Source of the DNA: Oerskovia paurometabola | GTDB lineage: Bacteria; Actinomycetota; Actinomycetes; Actinomycetales; Cellulomonadaceae | DNA: 64,000 bases | Assembly: GCF_016907365.1 (NCBI RefSeq) | Contig: NZ_JAFBBV010000001.1 | Span: forward strand, 4,154,001 to 4,218,000 | Direction of reading: 5' to 3' | Shown: positions 13,359-25,250 of the stretch, in pieces | Layout of the letters: each line of letters opens with the position of its first letter | How positions within the stretch are numbered: position 1 is the stretch's first letter | Program-made: the position numbers and the translations under genes | The notes under the pieces: generated by a model | Told to the model about the DNA's origin: nothing | What the model saw: only the letters and a program-made list of their open reading frames with translations | The model's database searches: none

Positions 13359-14468
13359 GTGACGTTCACCGCGCTTTCCGACAACCACCCTCTCGTCGAC
13401 GGTCGGACGACGAATTCTCCGCTCGTGCGCGCATTGCGCGGCGAGCGGCCGGAGACCACCCCCGTGTGGTTCATGCGACAGGCCGGGAGGTCGCTGCCCG
13501 AGTACCGCGAGCTGCGCCAGGGCATCGGGATGCTGGACTCGTGCCTGCGCCCGGACATGGCGAGCGAGATCACGCTCCAGCCGGTGCGCCGGCACGGCGT
13601 GGACGCGGGGATCTTCTTCTCGGACATCGTGATCCCGCTCAAGCTCGCGGGGGTCGAGGTGGACATCGTCCCGGGCGTGGGCCCGGTCATGGGCCAGGCG
13701 TACCGGACGCCCGACGACGTCGCGCGCCTCGTGGAGCACGAGCTCACCCCGGAGTCGCTCGCCCCGGTGACGGAGGCGGTCGCGCTCACGGTCGCGGCGC
13801 TCGGGTCGACTCCTCTCATCGGTTTCGCGGGGGCGCCGTTCACGCTCGCGGCGTACCTGGTCGAGGGGCGGCCGTCGCGCGACCACCTCGCGGCGCGCAC
13901 CCTCATGCACGCGGACCCCGAGTCGTGGGCGCGGCTCACGGCGTGGACGGCGCAGATCACGGGCGCGTTCCTGCGCGCTCAGGTCCTCGCGGGGGCCAGC
14001 GCGGCCCAGCTGTTCGACTCGTGGGCCGGGAGCCTGTCCCTGGAGGACTACCTCGCGGGCGCCAAGCCGGGGAGCACGGTCGCGTTGTCGCAGGTCAGCG
14101 ACCTGGGTGTGCCCGCGATCCACTTCGGGACGGGCACGGGGCACCTGTTGGGCGCCATGCGTGACTCGCTCACGGAGGCGGGCGTGACGCACCCGACCGT
14201 GGGTGTCGACTACCGCACGCCGCTCGACGAGGCCGCGGCCACGCTCGGCGGGTACGTGCCGGTCCAGGGCAACATCGACCCGGCGCTGCTCGCGGCACCG
14301 TGGCCCGTGCTCGAGGCGCACGTGCGCGACGTGCTGCGTCGGGGGGGCGCGGCTCCGGGGCACGTCGTGAACCTCGGTCACGGCGTGCCGCCCGAGACGG
14401 ACCCGACGGTCCTGACCCGCGTGGTCGAGCTGGTCCATTCCGTCCGGAACGTGTCAGAACCTGCGTGA
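13359..14468 (+). CDS. hemE: Uroporphyrinogen decarboxylase
   Basis: A 369-residue cytosolic enzyme that removes four carboxyl groups from uroporphyrinogen III to give coproporphyrinogen III. Signature stretches are present: PVWFMRQAGRSLPEYRELR near the N-terminus with the substrate-binding Arg residues, FFSDIVIPLKLAGVEVDIV with the catalytic Asp, and GFAGAPFTLAAYLVEG. GTG at 13359 gives a normal family length; the frame opens at 13311 but the extra 16 codons cover the promoter. The last codons, reading NVSEPA, lie inside a palindromic element (14451-14494), so the C-terminus was shaped by that repeat. Co-directional with hemY. Confidence 0.93.
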   Translation: MTFTALSDNHPLVDGRTTNSPLVRALRGERPETTPVWFMRQAGRSLPEYRELRQGIGMLDSCLRPDMASEITLQPVRRHGVDAGIFFSDIVIPLKLAGVEVDIVPGVGPVMGQAYRTPDDVARLVEHELTPESLAPVTEAVALTVAALGSTPLIGFAGAPFTLAAYLVEGRPSRDHLAARTLMHADPESWARLTAWTAQITGAFLRAQVLAGASAAQLFDSWAGSLSLEDYLAGAKPGSTVALSQVSDLGVPAIHFGTGTGHLLGAMRDSLTEAGVTHPTVGVDYRTPLDEAAATLGGYVPVQGNIDPALLAAPWPVLEAHVRDVLRRGGAAPGHVVNLGHGVPPETDPTVLTRVVELVHSVRNVSEPA

Positions 14469-14494
14469 CCTCGGGGTCACGCACGGTCTGACAC
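14451..14494. repeat. GTCAGAAC-family palindrome closing hemE
   Basis: GTGTCAGAACCTGCGTGACC and GGTCACGCACGGTCTGACAC pair almost perfectly around TCGG. The element contains the hemE stop codon and probably ends the hemE transcript. Homologous copies are embedded in hemD (17743-17785) and copA (22917-22958 and 24564-24604), and a mini-copy lies at 18326-18344. Confidence 0.8.
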
Positions 14495-14522
14495 ACCCTC
14501 GCAGCGGGGGCACACTTGACGT

Positions 14523-16052
14523 GTGCACCCCGTTGCTGATGGATCGTCCGGCCCTTCCCCGTCGTCCGACGCCACGTCCGACGCCTCGTCTCACGGCTCG
14601 TTCGACGCCGTGGTCGTCGGCGCCGGCATCGCCGGTCTGACCGCTGCGCGCACCCTGCGCCGTCGCGGCCTGCGGGTCCTCGTCCTGGAGGCGGCCGACC
14701 GCCCGGGCGGTCCCGTGCACGGCGACAAGCTCGGCTCGACCGGCCTGTCCGTCGACGTGGGAGCCGAGTCGTTCGCGGCGCGCGGCTCCGCGGTGGGCGA
14801 CCTGGTCACCGGCCTGGGTCTGACGGTCGTCGAGCCCGCTCCGCTCAGCGCGTGGGGTTACGCCGCGAGCCGCGCGTTCCCGCTGCCGAAGGCCGGGATC
14901 ATGGGCATCCCGGCCCACCCGTTCGCGGCGGACGTGCGGCGCGCGGTGGGTTGGCCCGGTGCACTGCGGGCCGGGCTGGACCGGGTCAAGCCGCGCCGCT
15001 GGGTCGACGAGGAGAACCTCGAGACGTTCGCGCGCTCGCGCCTGGGGCGCCGTGTCGCGGAGCGCCTGGTGGCCCCGGTCGCCGCGGGGGTGCACTCGGC
15101 TCCGCTCGAGCGGCTCGACGTCGACGCGGTCGCCCCGGGCCTGCGCGAGGCGTACGCCCGGGAGGGTTCGCTGACGCGCGCGGTCGCGGCGATGCGCGCG
15201 CAGGCGCCGGCCGGCTCGGCGGTGCGCGGCATCGAGGGCGGCATGCACCGCCTGGTCGAGGAGCTCGTGCTCGCCGTGACGAGCGAGGGCCCCGACGGCG
15301 CCGCACCGGCCGGGAGCACCGGCCCTGCCGGGGTGCTGCTCACGCGCCACGAGGTGGTGGACCTGAGCCGCGCCGTGGGCGGGGGCTGGAACGTCCAGGT
15401 CGAGACCCCCAGCGGCCCGGAGACGTTCCGTGCCCCGCGTCTGCTCGTGACGACCCCCGCGGTCGTGGACCTCGTGTCCCCGCTTGCGGGCCGCACGGCC
15501 GACCCGGTCCCGGACCCCGAGCCGGGCGCCGACATCCGGCTCGTGACGCTGCTGCTCGAGGCCCCCGCGCTCGACGCGGCCCCGCGCGGGAGCGGCCTCC
15601 TGATCGCTCCGAAGCCGCGCACGTGGTCGACGCGCGACGAGAACCACCGGGCGGGCGCGCACGACCCGGTCCAGGCCAAGGCCCTGACCCACTCGACCGC
15701 GAAGTGGCCGTGGCTGGCGGCCCGGGTGGCGGACGCCGTCGGGCCGGGGAACCACGTGGTGCGCCTGAGCTACGGGCGCATCGGGGAGACGGTCGAGCCG
15801 ACCGTCGACCAGGTGGTCCGCGACGCGTCGGTGCTGCTGGGCGTGGACCTGGAGGGCAAGGTGCGCGAGCACCTGTCGACGCGGTGGAACGGGTCGCTCC
15901 CGCCGCCCACGCCCGTGTACCGGCGCGAGGTCGGGGCGTTCGTGGAGCGGGTGTCGCACGTCGACGGCCTGGGGGTCACGGGAGGCTGGATCGCGGGCAC
16001 GGGGCTCGCGGCGATCGTGGGGCACGCGCAGGAGTCCGCCGAGCAGCTCTGA
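14523..16052 (+). CDS. hemY: Protoporphyrinogen/coproporphyrinogen oxidase (HemY/CgoX type)
   Basis: A 509-residue FAD enzyme. The dinucleotide-binding motif is VVVGAGIAGLTAARTL at about residues 29-44, and the C-terminal FAD contact is GGWIAGTGLAAIVGHA. In actinobacteria this enzyme oxidises coproporphyrinogen III to coproporphyrin III in the coproporphyrin-dependent heme route. The first 26 residues are Ser/Pro/Asp-rich and likely disordered. GTG at 14523 has no good Shine-Dalgarno sequence and the start could be slightly later. The usual next-door partners hemQ and hemH are not in this window. Confidence 0.9.
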   Translation: MHPVADGSSGPSPSSDATSDASSHGSFDAVVVGAGIAGLTAARTLRRRGLRVLVLEAADRPGGPVHGDKLGSTGLSVDVGAESFAARGSAVGDLVTGLGLTVVEPAPLSAWGYAASRAFPLPKAGIMGIPAHPFAADVRRAVGWPGALRAGLDRVKPRRWVDEENLETFARSRLGRRVAERLVAPVAAGVHSAPLERLDVDAVAPGLREAYAREGSLTRAVAAMRAQAPAGSAVRGIEGGMHRLVEELVLAVTSEGPDGAAPAGSTGPAGVLLTRHEVVDLSRAVGGGWNVQVETPSGPETFRAPRLLVTTPAVVDLVSPLAGRTADPVPDPEPGADIRLVTLLLEAPALDAAPRGSGLLIAPKPRTWSTRDENHRAGAHDPVQAKALTHSTAKWPWLAARVADAVGPGNHVVRLSYGRIGETVEPTVDQVVRDASVLLGVDLEGKVREHLSTRWNGSLPPPTPVYRREVGAFVERVSHVDGLGVTGGWIAGTGLAAIVGHAQESAEQL

Positions 16053-16215
16053 GCATTTGTCGCGTCGGCGACATTTCCCGACGTGCTGACAATTCGTCTC
16101 TTTGTCATGACTTCATGTCAGGTCGATGTCACTCGGTGGACAATTCCCCGGAAATCCGCACCGGACGGGTTGGTGCGCATTTCGACATCACCGCCCGGCA
16201 GAGGACACTGGAAGC
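16053..16215 (+). promoter_or_regulatory. AT-richer hemY-hemC intergenic region with two inverted repeats
   Basis: This 163-bp gap has lower GC than its surroundings. TGTCGC-GTCG-GCGACA (16058-16073) could end the hemY message. TGTCATGA-CT-TCATGTCA (16103-16120, one mismatch) could be an operator for the hemC-hemD-hemB-hemL transcript, which would then start here. No regulator is identified. Confidence 0.4.
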
Positions 16216-17400
16216 GTGAGCATTCGTGTCGGAACCCGTGGCAGCGCCCTCGCGACGACCCAGACGGGTCTGGTCGCCAGGCGCATCGAGACCCTGACCG
16301 GACGGCCGGTCGAGATCGTGCGCGTCCGCACCGAGGGTGACGTCCGCACCGGCTCGCTCGCCCAGATGGGCGGCACCGGGGTGTTCGTGACCGCGCTGCG
16401 CGAGGCTCTGCTCGACGGCCGCTGCGACGTCGCCGTGCACTCCCTCAAGGATCTCCCGACCGGCGCGGCCGAGGGCCTGACCCTCGTGACGCCCGAGCGG
16501 GAGAACCCGCGCGACGTGCTGTGCGCACGCAACGGCTGGACGCTGGAGACCCTTCCCCGCGGCGCCAAGGTCGGCACGGGCTCGCCCCGCCGCGCGGCCC
16601 AGCTCCTCGCGGTGCGCCCCGACCTCGACGTGCTCGACATCCGCGGCAACGTCGACACGCGTCTCGCACGGGCGCTCGGCCCCGACGCCGACCTCGACGC
16701 GGTCGTCCTCGCCTACGCCGGGCTCTCGCGCCTCGGCCGCCTCGACGCGGTCTCCGAGGTCATCGACGTGCGGGTCATGGCGCCGGCCCCCGGCCAGGGG
16801 GCGCTGGGCGTCGAGGTCCGGACCGCGGACCTCTCGCCGCTGTCCTCGTTCGACCTCCGGCCCGACGGCGCCACGGACCGTCCGCTCGACCTCGCCGACG
16901 TCGTCGCCGGCCTCGACCACCTCCCGACCCGCCTCGCGGTGCTCGCCGAACGCGCTCTCCTCGCACGCCTCGAAGCGGGCTGCGCGGCGCCCGTCGGAGC
17001 GCACGCCGTGGTCGAGGACGACGAGATCCGGCTCTCGGCCGTCGTCGCCCGGCTCGACGGCGGGCAGGTCCTCACGCACTCGGCACGGGTCGCGCTGCCG
17101 TCACCTGCGGGCGTCGCAGGCAGGGCCGCTGGCGCGGGGGGTCCGTCCGCCGAGGGGCGCGACGTCACCGACGCGCTCGCGAGGGGGCTCGGGGTCCAGG
17201 TCGCCGACGCGCTGCTGGCCGCCGGAGCCGCCGAGCTCGCGCCGCTGCGCGCGACCGGGCCAGGAGGTGGCTCGCTCCCCCAGGCCGAGGCGCCTGCGCT
17301 CTGGGCCCCTGGCACCGCGCCCTCGGACGACGCCCACGGCTCGGACGACGAGCCCACGGTCGGCGGCACCGACGCCCCCGTGCGCTCGGAGCGGCGCTGA
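16216..17400 (+). CDS. hemC: Hydroxymethylbilane synthase (porphobilinogen deaminase)
   Basis: A 394-residue cytosolic enzyme that polymerises four porphobilinogens into hydroxymethylbilane. RVGTRGSALATTQT opens the protein, SLKDLPTG carries the catalytic Asp region, RGNVDTRL binds substrate, and EAGCAAPVGAHA holds the Cys to which the dipyrromethane cofactor is attached. An Ala/Gly/Pro-rich tail of about 60 residues extends past the usual domain end. GTG at 16216 begins directly before the conserved SIRVGTRGS. The TGA shares its last A with the ATG of hemD, so the two are translationally coupled. Confidence 0.95.
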   Translation: MSIRVGTRGSALATTQTGLVARRIETLTGRPVEIVRVRTEGDVRTGSLAQMGGTGVFVTALREALLDGRCDVAVHSLKDLPTGAAEGLTLVTPERENPRDVLCARNGWTLETLPRGAKVGTGSPRRAAQLLAVRPDLDVLDIRGNVDTRLARALGPDADLDAVVLAYAGLSRLGRLDAVSEVIDVRVMAPAPGQGALGVEVRTADLSPLSSFDLRPDGATDRPLDLADVVAGLDHLPTRLAVLAERALLARLEAGCAAPVGAHAVVEDDEIRLSAVVARLDGGQVLTHSARVALPSPAGVAGRAAGAGGPSAEGRDVTDALARGLGVQVADALLAAGAAELAPLRATGPGGGSLPQAEAPALWAPGTAPSDDAHGSDDEPTVGGTDAPVRSERR

Positions 17401-18380
17401 TGCCAGGCCGACTGCGCGACCCGCAGCGCGGTCGCGCCCTGCCGCCAGCAGGCCCGGCCCCGGCCGCCGCGAACACCGCGACCTCCGGCCCGCTGACCGG
17501 GACCACCGTCCTCCTGCCGCGCTCCCCCGAGCGTGCCGCTCCCCTCGCGGCGCGGCTGCGCGCCCAGGGCGCGACCGTCCTCGTGAGCCCCGCGATCGAG
17601 CGTGCCCCCATCGAGGACACCGTGGCGATGGACGCCGCCGTGGCAGACCTCGCGGGCTTCGCGTGGGTCGTGGTCACGAGCGTCAACGCGATCGACGAGC
17701 TGATCGCGAGCGCCGCACGCCGGGGCCGCACGCTCGCCGAGCTGTCAGGACGAGCGAGGACCGGAGCGCACCCTGGTTCTGGCACGAGGTGGGCCGCGGT
17801 CGGGCCCGCGACTCGGCGAGCGCTCGAGGCCGCGGGGGTCCAGGTGGATCTCGAGGCGGGCGTGAACTCGGCGCGCGGGCTGCTCGCGGCGTTCGACGCG
17901 CTCACCGAGGCTCCCGACCACGGGCCCGAGGCCCGGACCACGCTCGACCACCCGGCCGCCGACGCGACGCGGGACGTCCTGCTCCCGCAGGGCGACCTCG
18001 CGAAGCCCACCATGGCCGACGGCCTGCGGGACCGCGGCTGGGTCCCGCACGTCGTGACCGCGTACCGGACGGTCGCGCACACGCTCTCCCCGGAGGTCGC
18101 GGACGCGTGGCGCGCGGGCGAGGTCGACGTGGTCGTGCTGACGTCGGGCAGCGTCGCGCGCGAGGTCGCGAACCAGCTCGGTGCGGACCCGCACGTCGCG
18201 GGCGTCGCGATCGGCGAGCCGACGGCGGAGGCCGCGCACGCCGTCGGGCTGCGGATCGACGCCGTAGCCGCCCAGGCGACCGACGACTCCCTGGCGGAGG
18301 CCGTGCTGCGCGTCGCCGCCCACCCGTCAGAACCTCGTCCTGACGACTCATCCCCGACAGAAGGCAGGAACCACCCGTGA
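17400..18380 (+). CDS. hemD: Uroporphyrinogen-III synthase, with an embedded palindromic insert
   Basis: A 326-residue two-domain enzyme that cyclises hydroxymethylbilane with inversion of ring D. Family marks are [29 protein letters not shown] and, in the second lobe, [13 protein letters not shown]. After the AELSG helix end, about 14 residues ([13 protein letters not shown], from DNA 17743-17785) interrupt the usual run into [12 protein letters not shown]; that DNA is a copy of the GTCAGAAC-type palindrome. A mini-copy also lies near the 3' end (18326-18344). The ATG overlaps the hemC stop, and the hemD stop overlaps the hemB GTG. The frame stays open, so the gene is probably functional. 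Confidence 0.9.
17743..17785. repeat. GTCAGAAC-family palindrome inside hemD
   Basis: It runs from CTGTCAGGACGAGCG to ACCCTGGTTCTGGCAC and is homologous in order and spacing to the copies at 14451, 22917 and 24564. It is translated in frame between the HemD residues AEL and WAAVG. Confidence 0.7.
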
Positions 18381-19375
18381 TCCGTCCCCGCCGCCTGCGC
18401 TCGACCCCGCAGATGCGCCGGCTCGTCGCCGAGACCCGGCTGCACGCCGCCGACCTGGTCCTCCCCCTGTTCGTCAAGGAGGGCCTGACCGAGCCCAAGC
18501 CGCTCGGGTCCATGCCCGGCATCGTGCAGCACACCGAGGAGAGCCTCGCCGGCGCCGTCGCGCAGGCGACCGCGGCCGGGCTGGGCGGCGTGATGCTGTT
18601 CGGCATCCCCGCGCACCGCGACGCGACCGGCTCGCAGGCGGACGCCCCCGACGGCATCCTCAACCGTGCGATCCGCATCGCACGCGACGCCGCTCGGGAC
18701 GCCGCCGCGGGCACGGGCCGTCCCGCCCCCGTCGTCATGGCCGACCTGTGCCTCGACGAGTTCACCGACCACGGGCACTGCGGCGTCCTCTCGCCGGGCC
18801 CGGACGGCGACGTGATCGTCGACAACGACGCGACCCTCGTCCGCTACGCGTCGGTGGCACTCACCCAGGCCGAGGCGGGCGCGGAGGTCGTGGCGCCGTC
18901 GGGCATGATGGACGGCCAGGTCGCCGTGATCCGGGAGACCCTCGACGACGCCGGGCACACGGGCGTGAGCATCCTGGCGTACAGCGCCAAGTACGCGAGC
19001 GCGTTCTACGGGCCGTTCCGCGAGGCCGTCGACTCGACGCTCCAGGGCGACCGCCGCACCTACCAGATGGACTCGGCGAACTTCCGCGAGGGCCTGCGCG
19101 AAGCGGACCTGGACCTGGCCGAGGGCGCCGACATGGTCATGGTCAAGCCCGCGGGCTCGTACCTCGACGTGCTCGCGGCCGTGGCCGAGCGCAGCGACGT
19201 CCCCGTGGCGGCGTACCAGGTGTCGGGCGAGTACGCGATGATCGAGGCGGCCGCCGCGAACGGCTGGATCGACCGGCGCGGCGCCGTCCTGGAGTCCGTG
19301 CTCGGCATCAAGCGCGCGGGCGCCGACATCGTCCTGACCTACTGGGCCCTCGAGATCGCAGAATGGATTCGGTGA
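18377..19375 (+). CDS. hemB: Delta-aminolevulinic acid dehydratase (porphobilinogen synthase)
   Basis: A 332-residue cytosolic enzyme that condenses two 5-aminolevulinates to porphobilinogen. [16 protein letters not shown] contains the Cys pair and His expected of a metal-binding (zinc-type) active site. [20 protein letters not shown] and [11 protein letters not shown] contain the two Schiff-base lysines. GTG at 18377 overlaps the hemD stop by four bases, so translation is coupled. The 3' end leads directly into hemL with a five-base gap. Confidence 0.95.
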
Positions 19376-19380
19376 CACCG

Positions 19381-20763
19381 ATGACCATCCACCCGACCGG
19401 TTCGCCGCTGCGCGCGACCACCCTCCACGACAACCACGAGGCGTTCGTGCGCGCCCAGGGCGCGATCCCGGGCGGCGTGAACTCGCCCGTGCGGGCCTAC
19501 GGCTCGGTCGGGGGCGACCCGCGCTTCATCGCGAGCGCGCGCGGCGCGTACGTCACCGACGTGACGGGCCGCGAGTACGTCGACCTGGTGTGCTCGTGGG
19601 GTCCCGCGCTCCTGGGGCACGCTCACCCCGCGGTCGTCGCGGCCGTGCAGGACGCCGCCGCGCGCGGCCTGTCGTTCGGCGCCCCGACGCTCGGCGAGGT
19701 CGACCTCGCGGAGGAGGTCCGCCGCCGGGTCCCCGCGGCCGAGCGCGTGCGTCTCGTCTCGACGGGCACCGAGGCGACCATGACCGCGGTGCGCCTGGCG
19801 CGCGGCGTCACGGGTCGCAACCTGCTGGTGAAGTTCGCCGGCTGCTACCACGGGCACGTCGACGCGCTGCTCGCCGAGGCGGGCTCGGGCGTCGCGACGC
19901 TCGCCCTGCCCGGGTCGGCCGGCGTGACCGAGGCCAGCGCGGCCGAGACCCTGGTCCTGCCGTACAACGACCTCGAGGCCGTCGAGCGTGCGTTCACCGA
20001 GCGCGGCTCGGAGATCGCCGCGGTCATCACCGAGGCGGCACCGGCGAACATGGGCATCGTGCCGCCCGGCCCGGGCTTCAACGAGGGCCTGCGCCGCATC
20101 ACGGCCGAGCACGGCGCCCTGCTGATCCTCGACGAGGTCCTCACGGGCTTCCGCGTGGGGCCGAGCGGCTGGTGGGGCCTGGAGTCGGGTGCAGCGGCGG
20201 GCGTGACCGCGGGCGAGCAGCCCTCGTACACGCCCGACCTGTTCACGTTCGGCAAGGTCGTCGGCGGTGGCATGCCCGTCGCGGCCCTGGGTGGTCCGGC
20301 CGCGATCATGGACCAGCTCGCGCCGCTCGGCCCGGTCTACCAGGCGGGCACCCTGTCCGGTAACCCGGTCGCGGTCGCGGCGGGCCTCGCGACGCTGCGC
20401 CTGGCCGACGACGCCGTGTACGCCCGCGTCGACCACGTCGCCCATGTCGTGGGGGACGCCGCGAGCGCGGCCCTCGCCGCCGAGGGGGTCCCGCACGCCC
20501 TGCAGCGCTCGGGGAACCTGTTCTCGATCATGTTCGGCGACTTCGCCGCCGCGGCCGGGGTGCGTACCTACGCGCAGGCCCAGGCGCAGGACGTGTTCCG
20601 CTACAAGGCGTTCTTCCACGCGATGCTGGACGCGGGGGTCAACCTGCCGCCGTCGGTCTTCGAGGCGTGGTTCGTGTCGTCCGCGCACGACGACGACGCG
20701 GTCGAGCGCATCCTCGCCGCGCTCCCGGCCGGGGCGAGGGCTGCGGCGCGCGCCCAGCGCTAG
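19381..20763 (+). CDS. hemL: Glutamate-1-semialdehyde 2,1-aminomutase
   Basis: A 460-residue PLP-dependent class III aminotransferase-fold enzyme that makes 5-aminolevulinate from the HemA product. Clear marks are [17 protein letters not shown] at the N-terminus, [28 protein letters not shown] for PLP contacts, and [16 protein letters not shown], whose Lys forms the Schiff base with PLP. ATG at 19381 was chosen as nearest the conserved start; in-frame codons at 19363 (ATG) and 19372 (GTG) are alternatives that overlap the hemB end. It is the last gene of the hem run and ends at a large hairpin. Confidence 0.94.
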
Positions 20764-20791
20764 ACCTCGCACGGGGCGAGGTGCCCGGCGG

Positions 20792-20843
20792 GGTGAGCTG
20801 CGCCGTCGGGCACCTTCCTCCGTGCCCGACGGCGCCGCTCACC
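20792..20843. terminator. Strong hairpin between convergent hemL and the HdeD-like gene
   Basis: GGTGAGCTGCGCCGTCGGGC (continuing AC) pairs with its complement ending GCGCCGCTCACC with one or two mismatches around an 8-base loop. The right arm contains the recurrent motif CCCGACGGCGCCGCTCACC also found at 3500. It lies between two convergent genes and fits a bidirectional terminator. Confidence 0.75.
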
Positions 20844-20894
20844 TCACGCCCGACCTCGCCGTCGTGAACGGCTCGGCAGGCGGCTCCGGCTCGG

Positions 20895-21482
20895 TCAGTA
20901 GCTGATCTGGCCGACCTTCTTGCCCAGGCTGCGGATCTGGAAGCCGAACGCGATGAGCGCGACGCCCCAGACCAGGGCGACGATCGCGAGGATCCACACG
21001 ATCGACACGACGCCTGCGCCCACGTTGAACAGGACCAGGACACCGAAGACGAGGGACAGCAGACCCGCGAAGACTCCCCAGCCCCAGCCGCTGCCGGGGA
21101 CCTTGCGGAGCTCGACGCTCGCGATCGTCTGGAAGATGCCCAGGACGACGGCCCACAGACCGATGATCCACACGAGGACCTCGGCGGTCTTGCCGGGCCA
21201 CACGAGCAGCACGATGCCGACCGCGACGCTCACGAGGCCGATCGTGACCAGGGCCGCCGTGCCGCCGGTCCCTCGGCGGCGGATACCCTCGACGATCTCG
21301 AACAGGCCGTCGACGAGCGTGAAGATCGCGACGATCCAGATGAAGACGACGGCCGTGATCTCGGGCCACACGAGCGCGACGATGCCGAAGAGGATCGCGA
21401 CGACGCCGCGGATCACTGGCCAGTACCAGACCTGCTTGGCGGTGGTGGAGAAGGCGGTGAGGATCGGGTCCTGCGTGGTCAT
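20895..21482 (-). CDS. HdeD/DUF308 family membrane protein
   Basis: A 195-residue integral membrane protein with six evenly spaced hydrophobic helices and the repeated pattern GIVALVWPEIT / GIVLLVWPGKT / GVLVLF that marks the DUF308 (HdeD) repeats. HdeD-type proteins are inner-membrane proteins associated with acid or general stress, with no known enzymatic activity. ATG at 21482 has AGGAG seven bases upstream. It diverges from csoR but has its own 5' region; I see no CsoR-type site close to its start. A second DUF308 protein is encoded at 38188-39111. Confidence 0.85.
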   Translation of the reverse strand: MTTQDPILTAFSTTAKQVWYWPVIRGVVAILFGIVALVWPEITAVVFIWIVAIFTLVDGLFEIVEGIRRRGTGGTAALVTIGLVSVAVGIVLLVWPGKTAEVLVWIIGLWAVVLGIFQTIASVELRKVPGSGWGWGVFAGLLSLVFGVLVLFNVGAGVVSIVWILAIVALVWGVALIAFGFQIRSLGKKVGQISY

Positions 21483-21623
21483 GGCGGGCTCCTGACGTCG
21501 TGTCGTGTCCCGCCAGGAACGCTGGAGCACCGTCCGTGCGGGCTGTTCGACTCTCATCGAACACCTGAAACGGCCGCATGTCGTGGCGAACCGCGCATTC
21601 GTCGCGGAGGGACCTTCGCCCCC

Positions 21624-21654
21624 TTGACAAGGCGATACCCCGCCGGGGTACCTT
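21624..21654 (+). promoter_or_regulatory. csoR-copZ-copA promoter overlapped by a CsoR-type operator
   Basis: TTGACA (21624-21629) and TACCTT (21649-21654) are plausible -35/-10 boxes, 19 bases apart. Between them lies ATACCCC-GCC-GGGGTAC (21635-21651), an inverted repeat of the kind bound by copper sensors of the CsoR family. A repressor there would block RNA polymerase directly. Confidence 0.7.
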
Positions 21655-21662
21655 GGAGGGTT

Positions 21663-21682
21663 GGTACCCAGTAGGGGTATCC
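21663..21682 (+). promoter_or_regulatory. Second CsoR-type operator
   Basis: GGTACCCAGTAGGGGTATCC is an inverted repeat of TACCC/GGGTA halves, located between the -10 box and the csoR start. Together with the site at 21635 it gives two operators in tandem, about 29 bases centre to centre. Confidence 0.65.
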
Positions 21683-21706
21683 GAGCGAGTGACACGGAGG
21701 CCCAGC

Positions 21707-22048
21707 ATGAGCGACACGACCACCCAGCGCCCGGTCGAGCCGGGCCCTGCCCCCGCCCACACCGGCCCCCACGGGTACGCCTCCGACAAGGAGGCCTACC
21801 TCAAGCGCATGCGCCGCATCGAGGGCCAGGTCCGCGGCATCGCCCGCATGATCGACGAGGACGTCTACTGCATCGACATCCTCACCCAGGTCTCCGCGGT
21901 GACCAAGGCTCTCCAGGCGGTGTCCATCGGACTCGTCGAGGACCACCTCGGCCACTGCGTCGTCGACGCCGCCCGGTCCTCCGAGGCCGAGGGCGCCGCC
22001 AAGGTCCGCGAGGCGTCCGACGCCATCGCCCGTCTCGTCCGCAGCTGA
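21707..22048 (+). CDS. csoR: CsoR-family copper-sensing transcriptional repressor
   Basis: A 113-residue all-helical DUF156/CsoR protein. The Cu(I) site is complete: the first Cys in [10 protein letters not shown] and the His/Cys pair in VEDHLGHCV, giving the C-H-C pattern of copper-responsive members rather than the nickel/cobalt (RcnR) or sulfide (CstR) patterns. [16 protein letters not shown] is the conserved DNA-contacting helix. ATG at 21707 follows GGAGG. It leads a csoR-copZ-copA operon with two TACCC/GGGTA operators upstream, so autoregulation relieved by Cu(I) is the straightforward reading. The N-terminal 30 residues are Thr/Pro-rich and flexible. Confidence 0.92.
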
Positions 22049-22074
22049 CACCCCACCCCTCCCCAAGGAGCACC

Positions 22075-22443
22075 ATGAGCACCGTCACCACCCTCGGCGT
22101 CACCGGCATGACCTGTGGCAACTGCGTCTCGCACGTCACCAAGGACGTGGGCGCCGTCCCCGGCGTGGAGAACATCAGCGTCGACCTGAACGTCGGCGGC
22201 GCCTCCGAGGTCACCGTCTTCTCGGACGACCCGCTCGACGAGGCCGCGCTGCGCGAGGCCGTCGACGAGGCCGGCTACGAGGTCGTGAGCTACGACGTCC
22301 AGCTCGACGCCCAGGCCGCGCAGTCGGCCGAGCAGGCCGCCGACCGCAAGGCCCACAACTGCGGCTGCGGCTGCGGCACGGACTCCGCCGCGGACGCCGC
22401 GCCCGCCCAGAAGACGTACGACCTCCAGGTCCCCCAGGCCTGA
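22075..22443 (+). CDS. copZ: CopZ-type copper chaperone (HMA domain) with Cys-rich tail
   Basis: A 122-residue cytosolic copper chaperone. The heavy-metal-associated domain covers about residues 1-70 with the Cu(I)-binding loop GMTCGNC. Beyond the normal 68-70 residue domain is a 50-residue extension containing HNCGCGCG, three Cys and a His in seven residues, which could be a second Cu(I) site or a storage tail. ATG at 22075 follows AAGGAG. It lies 26 bases after csoR and 173 bases before copA, separated from the latter by a hairpin. Confidence 0.9.
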
Positions 22444-22454
22444 CCGCTCGACCC

Positions 22455-22506
22455 GCCCGACGACGGAGCACCGGCCGGACTCCCGGCCGCCGCTCCGTCG
22501 TCGGGC
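22455..22506 (+). terminator. Hairpin between copZ and copA
   Basis: GCCCGACGACGGAGC (22455-22469) pairs perfectly with GCTCCGTCGTCGGGC (22492-22506), enclosing a second small CCGGCCGG/CCGGCCG stem. There is no T-tract. It may end part of the csoR-copZ messages or stabilise the upstream RNA so that the chaperone is made in excess over the ATPase. Confidence 0.65.
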
Positions 22507-22616
22507 ACCGCTCGGACCGCACCCGCCCCCCGCCCGCCGACCGCGGGCCGCGGGCCGCGACGGAGCACCCCACCCGGCGAGACCCGCCGGACGCACCACA
22601 CTGTCGAGGAGCACCG

Positions 22617-25250
22617 ATGACCACCCCCACCGGCCTGACCGCCGGCCCGACGCTCGTCGAGGTCGACCTCGCGATCGAGGGCATGACGTGCGCGTCGTGC
22701 GTCGCGCGCGTCGAGAAGCGGCTCAACCGCGTCGACGGCGTCGAGGCCACCGTGAACCTGCCGCTCGAGAGCGCGCACGTCGTGCTCCCCGAGGGAGTGA
22801 CGGACGCCGAGCTCGTCGCTGCCGTCGAGAAGGCCGGCTACCAGGCGCGGGTCACGGGGCGTCGCGCGGCAGCGCCTGCGGTCGGGGCGGCGCCTGCGCC
22901 CGAACCTGTCCCCGTCGTGTCAGAACAAGCGAGCACCCCGGCTCACGCTGGTTCTGACGACCCGGCTTCGGACGACCCGGCTTCCGACGACCCGGCGGCG
23001 GCCGGGACCGCGCCCACCGCGACCGACACCTCGGCCCCCACGCGCGACCGCGGCGCCGACCTCGGGCGCCGCCTCAAGGTCGCCGCGGTCCTCACGCTGC
23101 CGGTCGTGCTGCTGTCGATGGTCCCTGCCCTGCAGTTCCCGGGCTGGCAGTGGGTCGTCACGGCCCTCGCGCTGCCCGTCGTCACGTGGGGTGCGTGGCC
23201 CTTCCACACCGCCGCCTTCCGCGCGGCCCGCCACGGCGCCTCGACCATGGACACGCTCGTGTCGATCGGCGTGGTCGCCGCGACCCTGTGGTCCCTGTGG
23301 GCCCTGCTGCTGGGCGGCGCGGGCGAGATCGGCATGCGCATGTCGGTCTCTCTGCTGCCCTCGCGCGCGCACGGCTCCATGCCCGAGCTCTACTTCGAGG
23401 TCGCGGCCGTCGTCACGACGTTCCTCCTCGCGGGCCGCTGGTCCGAGCACCGCTCGCGCCGCAAGGCCGGCGACGCGCTGCGCTCCCTGCTCGCGATGGG
23501 CGCCAAGGACGCCGAGCGCGTCACGACCGGTCCCGACGGCCAGCGCGTGACCGAGCGCGTGCCCGTCGCGGCCCTGCGCGAGGGCGACCTGTTCACGGTC
23601 CGCCCGGGCGAGAAGGTCGCGACCGACGGCGTCGTGGTCGAGGGCGCCTCCGCCGTCGACACCTCGCTCCTGACGGGCGAGCCCGTGCCCGTCGACGTGA
23701 CGCCCGGCGACGACGTCACGGGCGCGACCGTCAACACCTCGGGCCACCTGCTCGTCCGCGCGACGCGCGTGGGCGAGGAGACGACGCTCGCGCAGATCGG
23801 TCGCCTCGTGAGCCAGGCGCAGACGGGCAAGGCCCCCGTGCAGCGCCTCGCGGACCGGATCTCGGCGGTGTTCGTGCCGATCGTCCTGGTCCTGGCCGTG
23901 CTCACCCTGGGGGGCTGGCTGCTCGCGGGGGCGAGCACGCAGTTCGCCTTCACGGCCGCCGTGGCCGTGCTGATCATCGCGTGCCCGTGCGCCCTGGGCC
24001 TCGCGACGCCGACCGCCCTGCTCGTCGGCACGGGGCGTGGCGCCCAGCTCGGCATCCTCATCAAGGGCCCCGAGGTCCTCGAGTCCACGCGCCGTGTCGA
24101 GGTGATCGTGCTCGACAAGACCGGCACCGTGACGCAGGGCCGCATGGCCCTCGAGCGCGTGGTCACCCGCGAGGGCACGCTCGACCTGTCCTCGGACGCG
24201 GCGAGGGCCGCAGCAGGCTCGTCGAGCGAGGCGCCCGACGCCGCCGCCCGCCACGCCCTGCGCCTCGCCGGCGCGGTGGAGGGGCTCAGCGAGCACCCGA
24301 TCGCGCAGGCGATCGCATCTGCTGCCACGCGAGTCTCAGGGAGCGTCGACGACCCCTCGGCCGGTGCGCCCGTCGAGACCGGGGCCGACGGCGTCGTCAT
24401 CGGTTCCGCGCAGGTCTTCGACTTCGTGAGCTCCCCTGGCGGCGGCGTGAGCGGCCTGGTCCGCACCGCGCACTCGGGCCTGTCCCCCGCAGGCGCGCTC
24501 AACGCGCAGCGGGTCCTGGTCGGGCGCCCGTCGTGGCTCGCCGAGCAGGGCGTCGCGTTCGACGTGCCAGAACCAGCGAGGCCTCAGGGTCACGCCCGCA
24601 CTGACAACGCGGGGACCGACCTGCGCCGCGCGTTCGACGAGGCCGAGGCCACGGGCGCGACCGCCGTCGTCGTCGCCTGGAACGGAACCGCCCAGGGCGT
24701 CCTCGTCCTGCGCGACCCCGTCAAGGAGACCTCGGCCCAGGCCGTGGCCGAGCTCCGCGCGCTGGGGCTGCGTCCGATCCTCCTCACGGGCGACAACGCG
24801 GGCGCGGCGCGGGTCGCCGCCCGGCAGGTCGGCATCGCGGAGGAGGACGTGATCGCGCAGGTCCTGCCGCAGGACAAGGTCGACGTCGTCGCACGCCTGC
24901 GCGCCGAAGGTCGGGTCGTCGCGATGGTCGGGGACGGCGTGAACGACGCCGCCGCGCTCGCCGGGGCCGACCTCGGCCTGGCCATGGGCACGGGCACCGA
25001 CGTCGCGATCGAGGCGAGCGACATCACGCTGGTCCGCGGCGACCTGCGCGCGACCGCGACGGCGATCCGGCTCTCTCGCCAGACGCTGCGCGTCATCAAG
25101 CAGAACCTGTTCTGGGCCTTCGCCTACAACGTAGCCGCGATCCCGCTCGCCGCCGCCGGGCTGCTCAACCCGATGATCGCGGGGGCCGCGATGGCGATGA
25201 GCTCGGTCCTGGTCGTCGGCAACTCGCTGCGCCTGCGCCGAGCGGGCTGA
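22617..25250 (+). CDS. copA: P1B-type copper-exporting ATPase
   Basis: An 877-residue Cu(I)-pumping ATPase of the cytoplasmic membrane. It has one N-terminal HMA domain (GMTCASC, about residue 22), eight predicted membrane helices, the CPC metal gate in [13 protein letters not shown], the phosphatase TGEP, the phosphorylated DKTGT, the HP motif in SEHPIAQ and the hinge [13 protein letters not shown] at 22617 follows GAGGAG. Two copies of the GTCAGAAC palindrome are translated in it. One lies at residues about 101-114 in the linker before helix 1, next to repeated ASDDP units. The other lies at about 650-663 in the nucleotide-binding domain loop. Both fall in non-conserved loops. Confidence 0.95.
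22917..22958. repeat. GTCAGAAC-family palindrome inside copA (linker copy)
   Basis: GTCAGAACAAGCGAGC pairs with GCTCACGCTGGTTCTGAC around ACCCCG. It is translated in frame between the HMA domain and the first membrane helix and is followed by three near-identical 15-base units coding ASDDP. Confidence 0.8.
24564..24604. repeat. GTCAGAAC-family palindrome inside copA (N-domain copy, degenerate)
   Basis: GTGCCAGAACCAGCGAGG, then CAGGGTCACGC, then CGCACTGACA keep the order and spacing of the other copies, with more mismatches. The DNA is translated in frame as [13 protein letters not shown] in a loop of the nucleotide-binding domain. Confidence 0.6.

Follow-up and report, generated by a model that had tools for sequence, protein, structure and literature searches.

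Introduction

The best-known palindromic repeats within functional proteins are those of Rickettsia, where the Rickettsia palindromic elements (RPEs) measure 105-146 bp, according to the sections of a review on which we draw (PMC2229807). Here we describe a 42-bp palindrome that we found in hemE, hemD and copA in a 64,000-nucleotide stretch of an Oerskovia genome (the window; G000:C1:4154001-4218000 of a genome of 73% GC in a single contig of 4,326,429 bp) and elsewhere in the genus. We think it likely that these palindromes are an Oerskovia family of non-autonomous elements resembling repetitive extragenic palindromic (REP) sequences, with a niche at the 3' ends of genes, and that their codon phase inside genes is filtered at the level of the protein.

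The REP sequences of E. coli are given as 14-40 nt (PMC12306157, consulted in part), and the Oerskovia element is slightly larger. In the portions used here of the work of Di Nocera et al. (2013, PMC3733652), GTAG and CGTC REPs are described as paired and present in many copies, mostly between unidirectional or convergent genes and near 3' ends; the ends of GTAG REPs often provide a stop codon, and some copies are wholly intragenic. According to the same portions, CGTC-tagged REPs have an unpaired tag (CGTC, or TGTC or CCTC), a stem of 8-9 bp and a loop of 4-5 nt, are without a dedicated transposase, and include RPE-4 and RPE-6 of Rickettsia; Actinobacteria are not among the five phyla listed for them there. 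RU-1/ERIC (enterobacterial repetitive intergenic consensus) is about 127 bp, with a target-site duplication and TA ends (PMC2229807, same sections).

Results

Four copies of the palindrome and one mini-copy are present in the window. The 40-bp cores start at 14453, 17744, 22919 and 24566, the mini-copy covers 19 bp (18326-18344), and the reversed window gave no hit at the same score. An earlier note on this DNA had claimed all five, with starts one or two bases off, and was right that the coding copies keep the frame, because 42 bp is 14 codons. The first copy (14452..14493; fold of -28.3 kcal/mol, z -6.3) is at the end of hemE, as claimed, and it also supplies the stop codon: hemE as called (13359..14468, + strand) ends within the element at the TGA at 14466-14468. 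The gene for uroporphyrinogen-III synthase, hemD (17400..18380, + strand; PF02602), holds an in-frame copy read on the + strand (17743..17784), and the mini-copy, with one base on each side (18325..18345), is in the region for the C-terminal tail. In copA, which encodes a copper-type P-ATPase (22617..25250, + strand; PF00403, PF00122 and PF00702), one in-frame copy (22918..22959) falls in the linker after the HMA domain, and the pattern and Pfam matches place a second, decayed in-frame copy (24565..24606) in the HAD-type (ATP-binding/phosphorylation) region.

The element is a near-perfect palindrome of fixed length. It is 40 bp long, or 42 bp with the flanking T and A (TGTCAGAACSAGCG..CGCTSGTTCTGACA), and the ends of the 42-mer are TGTCAGAAC and GTTCTGACA. 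In 91 copies, arm positions 1-8, 10-13, 15 and 18 had a single base in at least 89%, and 93% of flanks had an A after (T before) the element, hence the length of 42 bp. The consensus folds into a 19-bp stem with a 4-nt loop (-36.2 kcal/mol, z -9.4). Among the window copies, that in the CopA linker (-21.2 kcal/mol, z -4.4) and the mini-copy (-6.8 kcal/mol, z -2.9) also fold, and those in HemD (z -1.1) and at the second CopA site (z -0.3) were near their shuffles.

The palindrome is dispersed throughout Oerskovia. We searched genomes with a 40-bp pattern allowing up to three mismatches, using the reversed pattern as a control. There were 28 places in the source genome (G000), found with a pattern of fixed length that is blind to other lengths, and none for the reversed pattern; a covariance model built from 48 typed copies gave 91 strand-hits in G000 at E <= 0.1. 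The seven Oerskovia genomes had 6, 9, 11, 28, 32 (G003, probably O. rustica, as its contig C32 has the five copies of L027 unchanged), 78 (G004, taken as O. turbata) and 93 places (G002, taken as O. jenensis). Among 59 related genomes scanned, the pattern matched 12, namely all seven Oerskovia and five of the 52 others (2 to 30 places). The pattern of the ends, TGTCAGAAC-N18..30-GTTCTGACA, was present in 5 of the 396 genomes scanned from the order; these belong to 3 of the 109 genera, all of one family. With the gap free to vary from 18 to 30, it was 24, giving exactly 42 bp, in all 12 places listed of the 19 counted. The further copies that the earlier note proposed to look for thus exist in the genome and the genus, inside and outside genes. 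Chance matching was rejected as an explanation, as the reversed pattern had no hit in the seven Oerskovia genomes or in the reversed window; it matched one place each in G034 (59-genome scan) and G229 (396-genome scan), neither of which had forward hits.

A second subfamily has the same ends and length and another centre (GTGGCCGGGG..), and occurs in G005 and G001. Copies with this CCGG-type centre are at G005:C1:61264, 61372 and 67155, at G001:C41:80813, and in L131 at the orthologue of G002 1845693. G005 has 12 exact-end places of the second subfamily and few copies of the first.

We found no match of the consensus 42-mer to phage or plasmid sequences at E <= 0.01. The end pattern is present in six viral contigs, with lengths of 36-40 and never 42, which we take as chance. 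Known RNA families gave no match above threshold; the one sub-threshold Rfam match, to ASdes (window 14394-14440, minus strand; 20.8 bits against a gathering threshold of 40, E 0.78), is also taken as chance.

Copies are concentrated at the 3' ends of genes. We scored 203 copies in stretches fetched from four genomes (35 in G000, 74 in G002, 32 in G003 and 62 in G004), a sample and not every copy (pattern totals 28, 93, 38 and 80, the 35 including weaker copies beyond the 28 pattern places), with orthologues counted separately and genes called with a codon model for which seven genes of the window were the training set. Sixty copies were inside genes, 19 contained a gene end, one contained a gene start, and 123 were intergenic, of which 54 were tail-to-tail, 58 co-directional and 11 divergent. 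The median distance to the nearest gene 3' end was 16 bp (n = 112), and copies were typically directly past stop codons. In G000 and G002 (background of 412,619 bases, 89.4% coding), tail-to-tail spacers held 24 of 66 intergenic copies compared to 7.9 expected from their length, co-directional spacers 35 compared to 40.0, and divergent spacers 7 compared to 18.1. The element is thus usually extragenic and near gene ends, as REPs are, yet 60 of the 203 copies are intragenic. An ancestral protein repeat, rather than a DNA element, was rejected because 123 of the 203 copies are intergenic.

All intragenic copies are in one codon phase. In 60 of 60 copies from the four species, the first G of the 40-mer was at codon position 3. 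These copies form 22 context clusters (one merging two genes, another merging two CopA sites) and, by hand count, are in 19 genes. If all phases were equal, the 22 clusters would share a single phase with a chance of about 1e-10; given the rates at which the phases are open, the chance is 9e-13. Both values assume independent clusters. Openness was determined from 57 intergenic copies of G000 and G002: of 114 strands, 113 were open in phase 1, 46 in phase 2 (the invariant phase) and 3 in phase 0. When a gene ended in the element, it stopped at the TGA of GCG TGA in the same phase 2 in 18 of 19 cases, and in another phase in one. The peptide encoded in phase 2 is [VL]SE[PR]ASxxxHA[GR]SD, and phase 1 would encode CQNERDLEVTLVLT, which is more hydrophobic (mean Kyte-Doolittle hydropathy of -0.21, compared to -1.39 for phase 2).

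The proteins with inserts have diverse functions. We scanned HemD, CopA and 12 further proteins, with 5 of the 19 genes outside the scan. Pfam matches included cysteine-rich CCG, FAD oxidoreductase, biotin carboxylase, CoA transferase, molybdopterin oxidoreductase, HAD hydrolase, NHL-thioredoxin, Hen1, MFS, DEAD helicase, condensation and carrier domains, and a pyridine-nucleotide oxidoreductase with a BFD domain, which we read as NirB-like. Insertion sites were placed by Pfam boundaries; among solved structures, the relatives of CopA were good and those of HemD weak. Many sites were outside or between Pfam matches, for example at CopA residue 101, past the HMA domain (18-76) and ahead of the E1-E2 ATPase, which starts at residue 311. 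This did not hold for the HAD site, for the internal site in HemD, or for the sites around CopA residues 590-680.

Copies often occur in regularly spaced pairs. Among close pairs (<160 bp apart, orthologues apart), 18 of 27 had a start-to-start distance of 62 or 63 bp. Five coding pairs were spaced 63, 63, 63, 105 and 150 bp, every one a multiple of three. In O. jenensis, there were eight copies in the stretch with the hemE-copA block and eight in another, each stretch being some 10-15 kb, so four or five copies within 10 kb, which had seemed notable in the window, are not special.

Related species differ in the presence of copies at the same sites. We compared the window to six other Oerskovia (O. 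rustica, O. turbata, O. jenensis, O. douganii, O. merdavium and O. enterophila); CopA was compared among Oerskovia sequences only. The hemE end had a scoring copy in all seven sequences, with scores from 17 (O. merdavium, weak) to 50. O. rustica, O. turbata and O. jenensis had scoring copies at the internal HemD site and at three CopA sites. The window is without the middle CopA copy (24354..24355), and its copA is 45 nt shorter there than that of O. rustica and O. turbata. O. douganii and O. merdavium had none above threshold at the HemD and three CopA sites, with weak matches (3-4 mismatches) at two of these sites in O. douganii. O. enterophila had no scoring HemD copy, and its contig ends short of copA. 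A copy in the copZ-copA spacer was found only in O. turbata and O. jenensis, the O. rustica spacer having unread bases. At the site of the hemD mini-copy, there was the same mini-copy in O. rustica, a full copy in O. turbata and a pair in O. jenensis, and because of the latter two the mini-copy looks like a full copy that probably lost 21 nt by internal deletion.

A search with the window HemD found loci in five Oerskovia and one Sediminihabitans. In total, 404 HemD homologues were found, of which 120 were listed, and 19 of these were selected for alignment. The internal site was filled in nine (seven named Oerskovia, the window's own and one unnamed) and had no residues in ten (O. flava, four Cellulosimicrobium, Paraoerskovia, two Luteimicrobium and two Sanguibacter). 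Thus, as the earlier note had predicted, this is an insertion without a counterpart in most of the relatives aligned. Some of the nine filled sites were no longer recognisable as the element, and one was a tandem pair 21 residues apart. The HemD P0017, named Oerskovia turbata, has such an internal pair of peptides 21 residues apart and a second pair near the C-terminus; it is 490 aa long compared to 341 aa for the HemD of G004, so strains of O. turbata differ.

Of 65 O. jenensis copies, 53 had aligned flanks in the fetched G000 DNA. G000 had a copy in the gap for 18 of these, a copy only within 130 bp for 13 (12 of which were members of six O. jenensis pairs), and none for 22. For the ten coding copies without a G000 counterpart, the length difference was always a multiple of three (39 to 90 nt), compared to only 6 of the 12 copies outside genes. 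At site 1848375 there was a copy in G002, an empty form common to G004, G003 and G000, and a palindrome with a different centre in G005.

Outside genes, changes in one arm are matched by changes in the other more often than by chance. In 13 orthologous pairs that were not wholly intragenic (G002 compared to G000), there were 24 one-sided, 9 compensated and 1 other two-sided changes; the total of 10 two-sided changes exceeded the permuted value of 5.07 (p = 0.004). Four coding pairs had 18 one-sided, 1 compensated and 1 other change, and the 2 two-sided changes were close to the permuted 2.27. In an alignment of 48 copies, the covariation score and the number of cells with two-sided changes were above all 500 shuffles, and paired cells were above all but 2.

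Discussion

Based on these results, we believe that the palindromes were dispersed, probably by transposition, by some trans-acting machinery. Their main niche is the 3' ends of genes, where the transcript may form a strong hairpin and where the phase-2 TGA in the element is sometimes used as the stop codon. Intragenic copies would persist only when read in the phase whose peptide is short, hydrophilic and similar to a linker, and only if the arm read first is without a TGA; intragenic copies in other phases would be purged.

Several results weigh against this reading. The Y1 transposase (PF01797) was absent from 37 of 37 genomes of the family, including all seven Oerskovia, in a search that did not extend to other transposase families; it was present in 2 of 22 other genomes of the order, and control matches were found in 5 of 14 genomes. 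Target-site duplications were not above shuffles (3-nt matches in 5 of 91 copies, compared to a mean of 2.9 and a maximum of 7), although old insertions could have lost them, and neither was the symmetry of the flanks. At no empty site was the length difference exactly 42 nt and the joint clean. At least two of the sites without a copy in G000 keep damaged remnants (for example, sites 2935193 and 3637103), indicating loss as well as gain. Coding copies matched between species at 0.88 compared to 0.79 for 42-nt flanks (higher in 31 of 43 non-independent pairs), and this greater conservation is not predicted by pure decay. For the hairpin, two of the five measures in the 48-copy alignment (two-sided-change pairs and further pair types) were not above shuffles, and pairing at variable positions 9, 14 and 16 was 59, 52 and 43%, by our arithmetic near that of independent arms and therefore not kept everywhere. 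Gene conversion or re-insertion might also explain the compensated changes. Finally, one candidate mobiliser was rejected. An AbiEi-like gene is absent from G000, G003 and G006 and present in one copy in the other four genomes, 89% identical in G004 and 54-56% identical in G001 and G005, where it is inverted with one TGA inside the match. This gene (L077:14951-15973; G002:C1:1852953-1853972, minus strand) encodes 340 aa with a sub-threshold match to AbiEi_4 (E 0.03) and has palindrome pairs on both sides.

Alternatively, the codon phase might be fixed at insertion, for example by a short target motif with a fixed phase in GC-rich genes. The phase shared by the 60 intragenic copies and 18 of the 19 gene ends, the latter at places where the protein should suffer little, fits this idea, as do the near-invariant flanking T and A. 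However, flanks beyond the T and A are only weakly biased, and the greater hydrophobicity of the phase-1 peptides may make a filter at the protein level sufficient. We consider fixation at insertion unlikely. We also regard as unlikely a version in which insertion itself is specific for the site between codon positions 1 and 2, such that the same 42 bp would come ready to end a gene (SE[PR]A-stop followed by the hairpin) or, after loss of one TGA, to act as a linker. If this were true, the palindrome would have adapted, as a mobile element, to its host's reading frame.

The palindromes might instead serve a regulatory or chromosome-organising protein as binding sites that selection maintains, with mobility playing a minor part. 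A fixed length of 42 bp despite different centres and the regular spacing of pairs are in keeping with binding sites. So is the distribution of the 28 places in G000, where the largest gap, 1,541,065-2,898,724 (1.36 Mb; P = 0.001, or 0.006 with clusters collapsed), spans the terminus as suggested by a noisy base skew in 33 sampled stretches; the largest gap in G002, among 85 places listed, had P = 0.012 with clusters collapsed. However, copy number ranges from 6 to 93 among Oerskovia species, most intergenic copies are near gene 3' ends, and it can be argued that a 42-bp palindrome is unlikely to have arisen repeatedly by point mutation. We find this account improbable.

It is very improbable that the palindrome is a miniature inverted-repeat transposable element (MITE) of an ordinary DDE insertion sequence, with two abutting terminal repeats as its body: it has inverted-repeat ends of the TG...CA type and is dispersed without a coding region, but the target-site duplication expected of a MITE was not above shuffles in the 91 copies. 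We give least credence to a CGTC-tagged REP in the classification of Di Nocera et al., since, despite similar habits (no PF01797 transposase, intragenic copies in frame, pairing, and proximity to 3' ends), CGTC follows one end in just 20 of 91 copies, TGTC pairs with GACA in the 19-bp stem, so that the symmetric palindrome has no tag left unpaired, and the phyla listed in the portions used here (PMC3733652) exclude Actinobacteria. A GTAG REP driven by a REP-associated tyrosine transposase (RAYT) was rejected because PF01797 was in none of the 37 family genomes.

The family that we favor, of REP-like palindromes at gene 3' ends, shares traits with several described elements, as far as the cited sources were consulted. 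Like REPs in general, it consists of short palindromes with a shared consensus in several to many copies per genome. Like GTAG and CGTC REPs (PMC3733652), it is a short multicopy palindrome found in pairs, at 3' ends, at stop codons and inside genes; unlike them, it is without an unpaired tag, is longer, near-perfect and symmetric, has a fixed length, is actinobacterial, and has one codon phase with a stop codon inside the arm. The regularly spaced pairs and high copy number are shared with RAYT-associated REPs and bacterial interspersed mosaic elements (BIMEs; PMC2817692), from which it differs in having no Y1 transposase in the seven genomes and no GTAG-type head in the flank table. As with RU-1/ERIC (PMC2229807), a small repeat adds translated segments to genes, in different hosts.

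The earlier note compared the element to that of Rickettsia, and as an analogy this stands. Like RPEs (PMC2229807), it is palindromic and inserted in frame into conserved proteins, with no known transposase, as illustrated by the 60 intragenic copies and the HemD site that is empty in 10 of 19 homologues. Unlike RPEs, which are from an intracellular host, it is unrelated in sequence, 42 bp (in the 12 listed places) rather than 105-146 bp, and from a 73% GC actinomycete. It works like RPEs and CGTC REPs; membership is not established, for RPEs because length, sequence and tag differ. The view in the note of a coding element was also incomplete, as most copies are intergenic and REP-like and the codon phase is invariant. 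Among the papers listed on palindromic or REP repeats of Oerskovia, Cellulosimicrobium and Actinobacteria, no title or opening of an abstract described this family, subscription papers being outside the scope.

Palindromes inside proteins now extend to a high-GC actinomycete, in the examined stretches of which they affect 19 genes, including those for haem, copper, molybdopterin and RNA-repair enzymes. The strict and countable phase rule provides a handle on how small mobile DNA enters proteins, and because a given site can hold a copy in one species and none in another, filtering into proteins, gene ends and spacers is directly testable. What moves palindromes without a RAYT was left open for CGTC repeats by Di Nocera et al. 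(PMC3733652, in the portions used here), and Oerskovia offers a compact test ground.

Two further features were observed. The first 15,000 bp of the source contig (L165, G000:C1:1-15000) contain two stretches of identical open reading frames 7,925 bp apart. This contig start looks like ribosomal RNA genes, and coordinate 1 is thus presumably not dnaA-like. Directly after hemL, the window contains a strong inverted repeat (20775-20860) with 39-nt arms that are 8 nt apart and 79% complementary; it is unlike the palindrome family and is perhaps a terminator.

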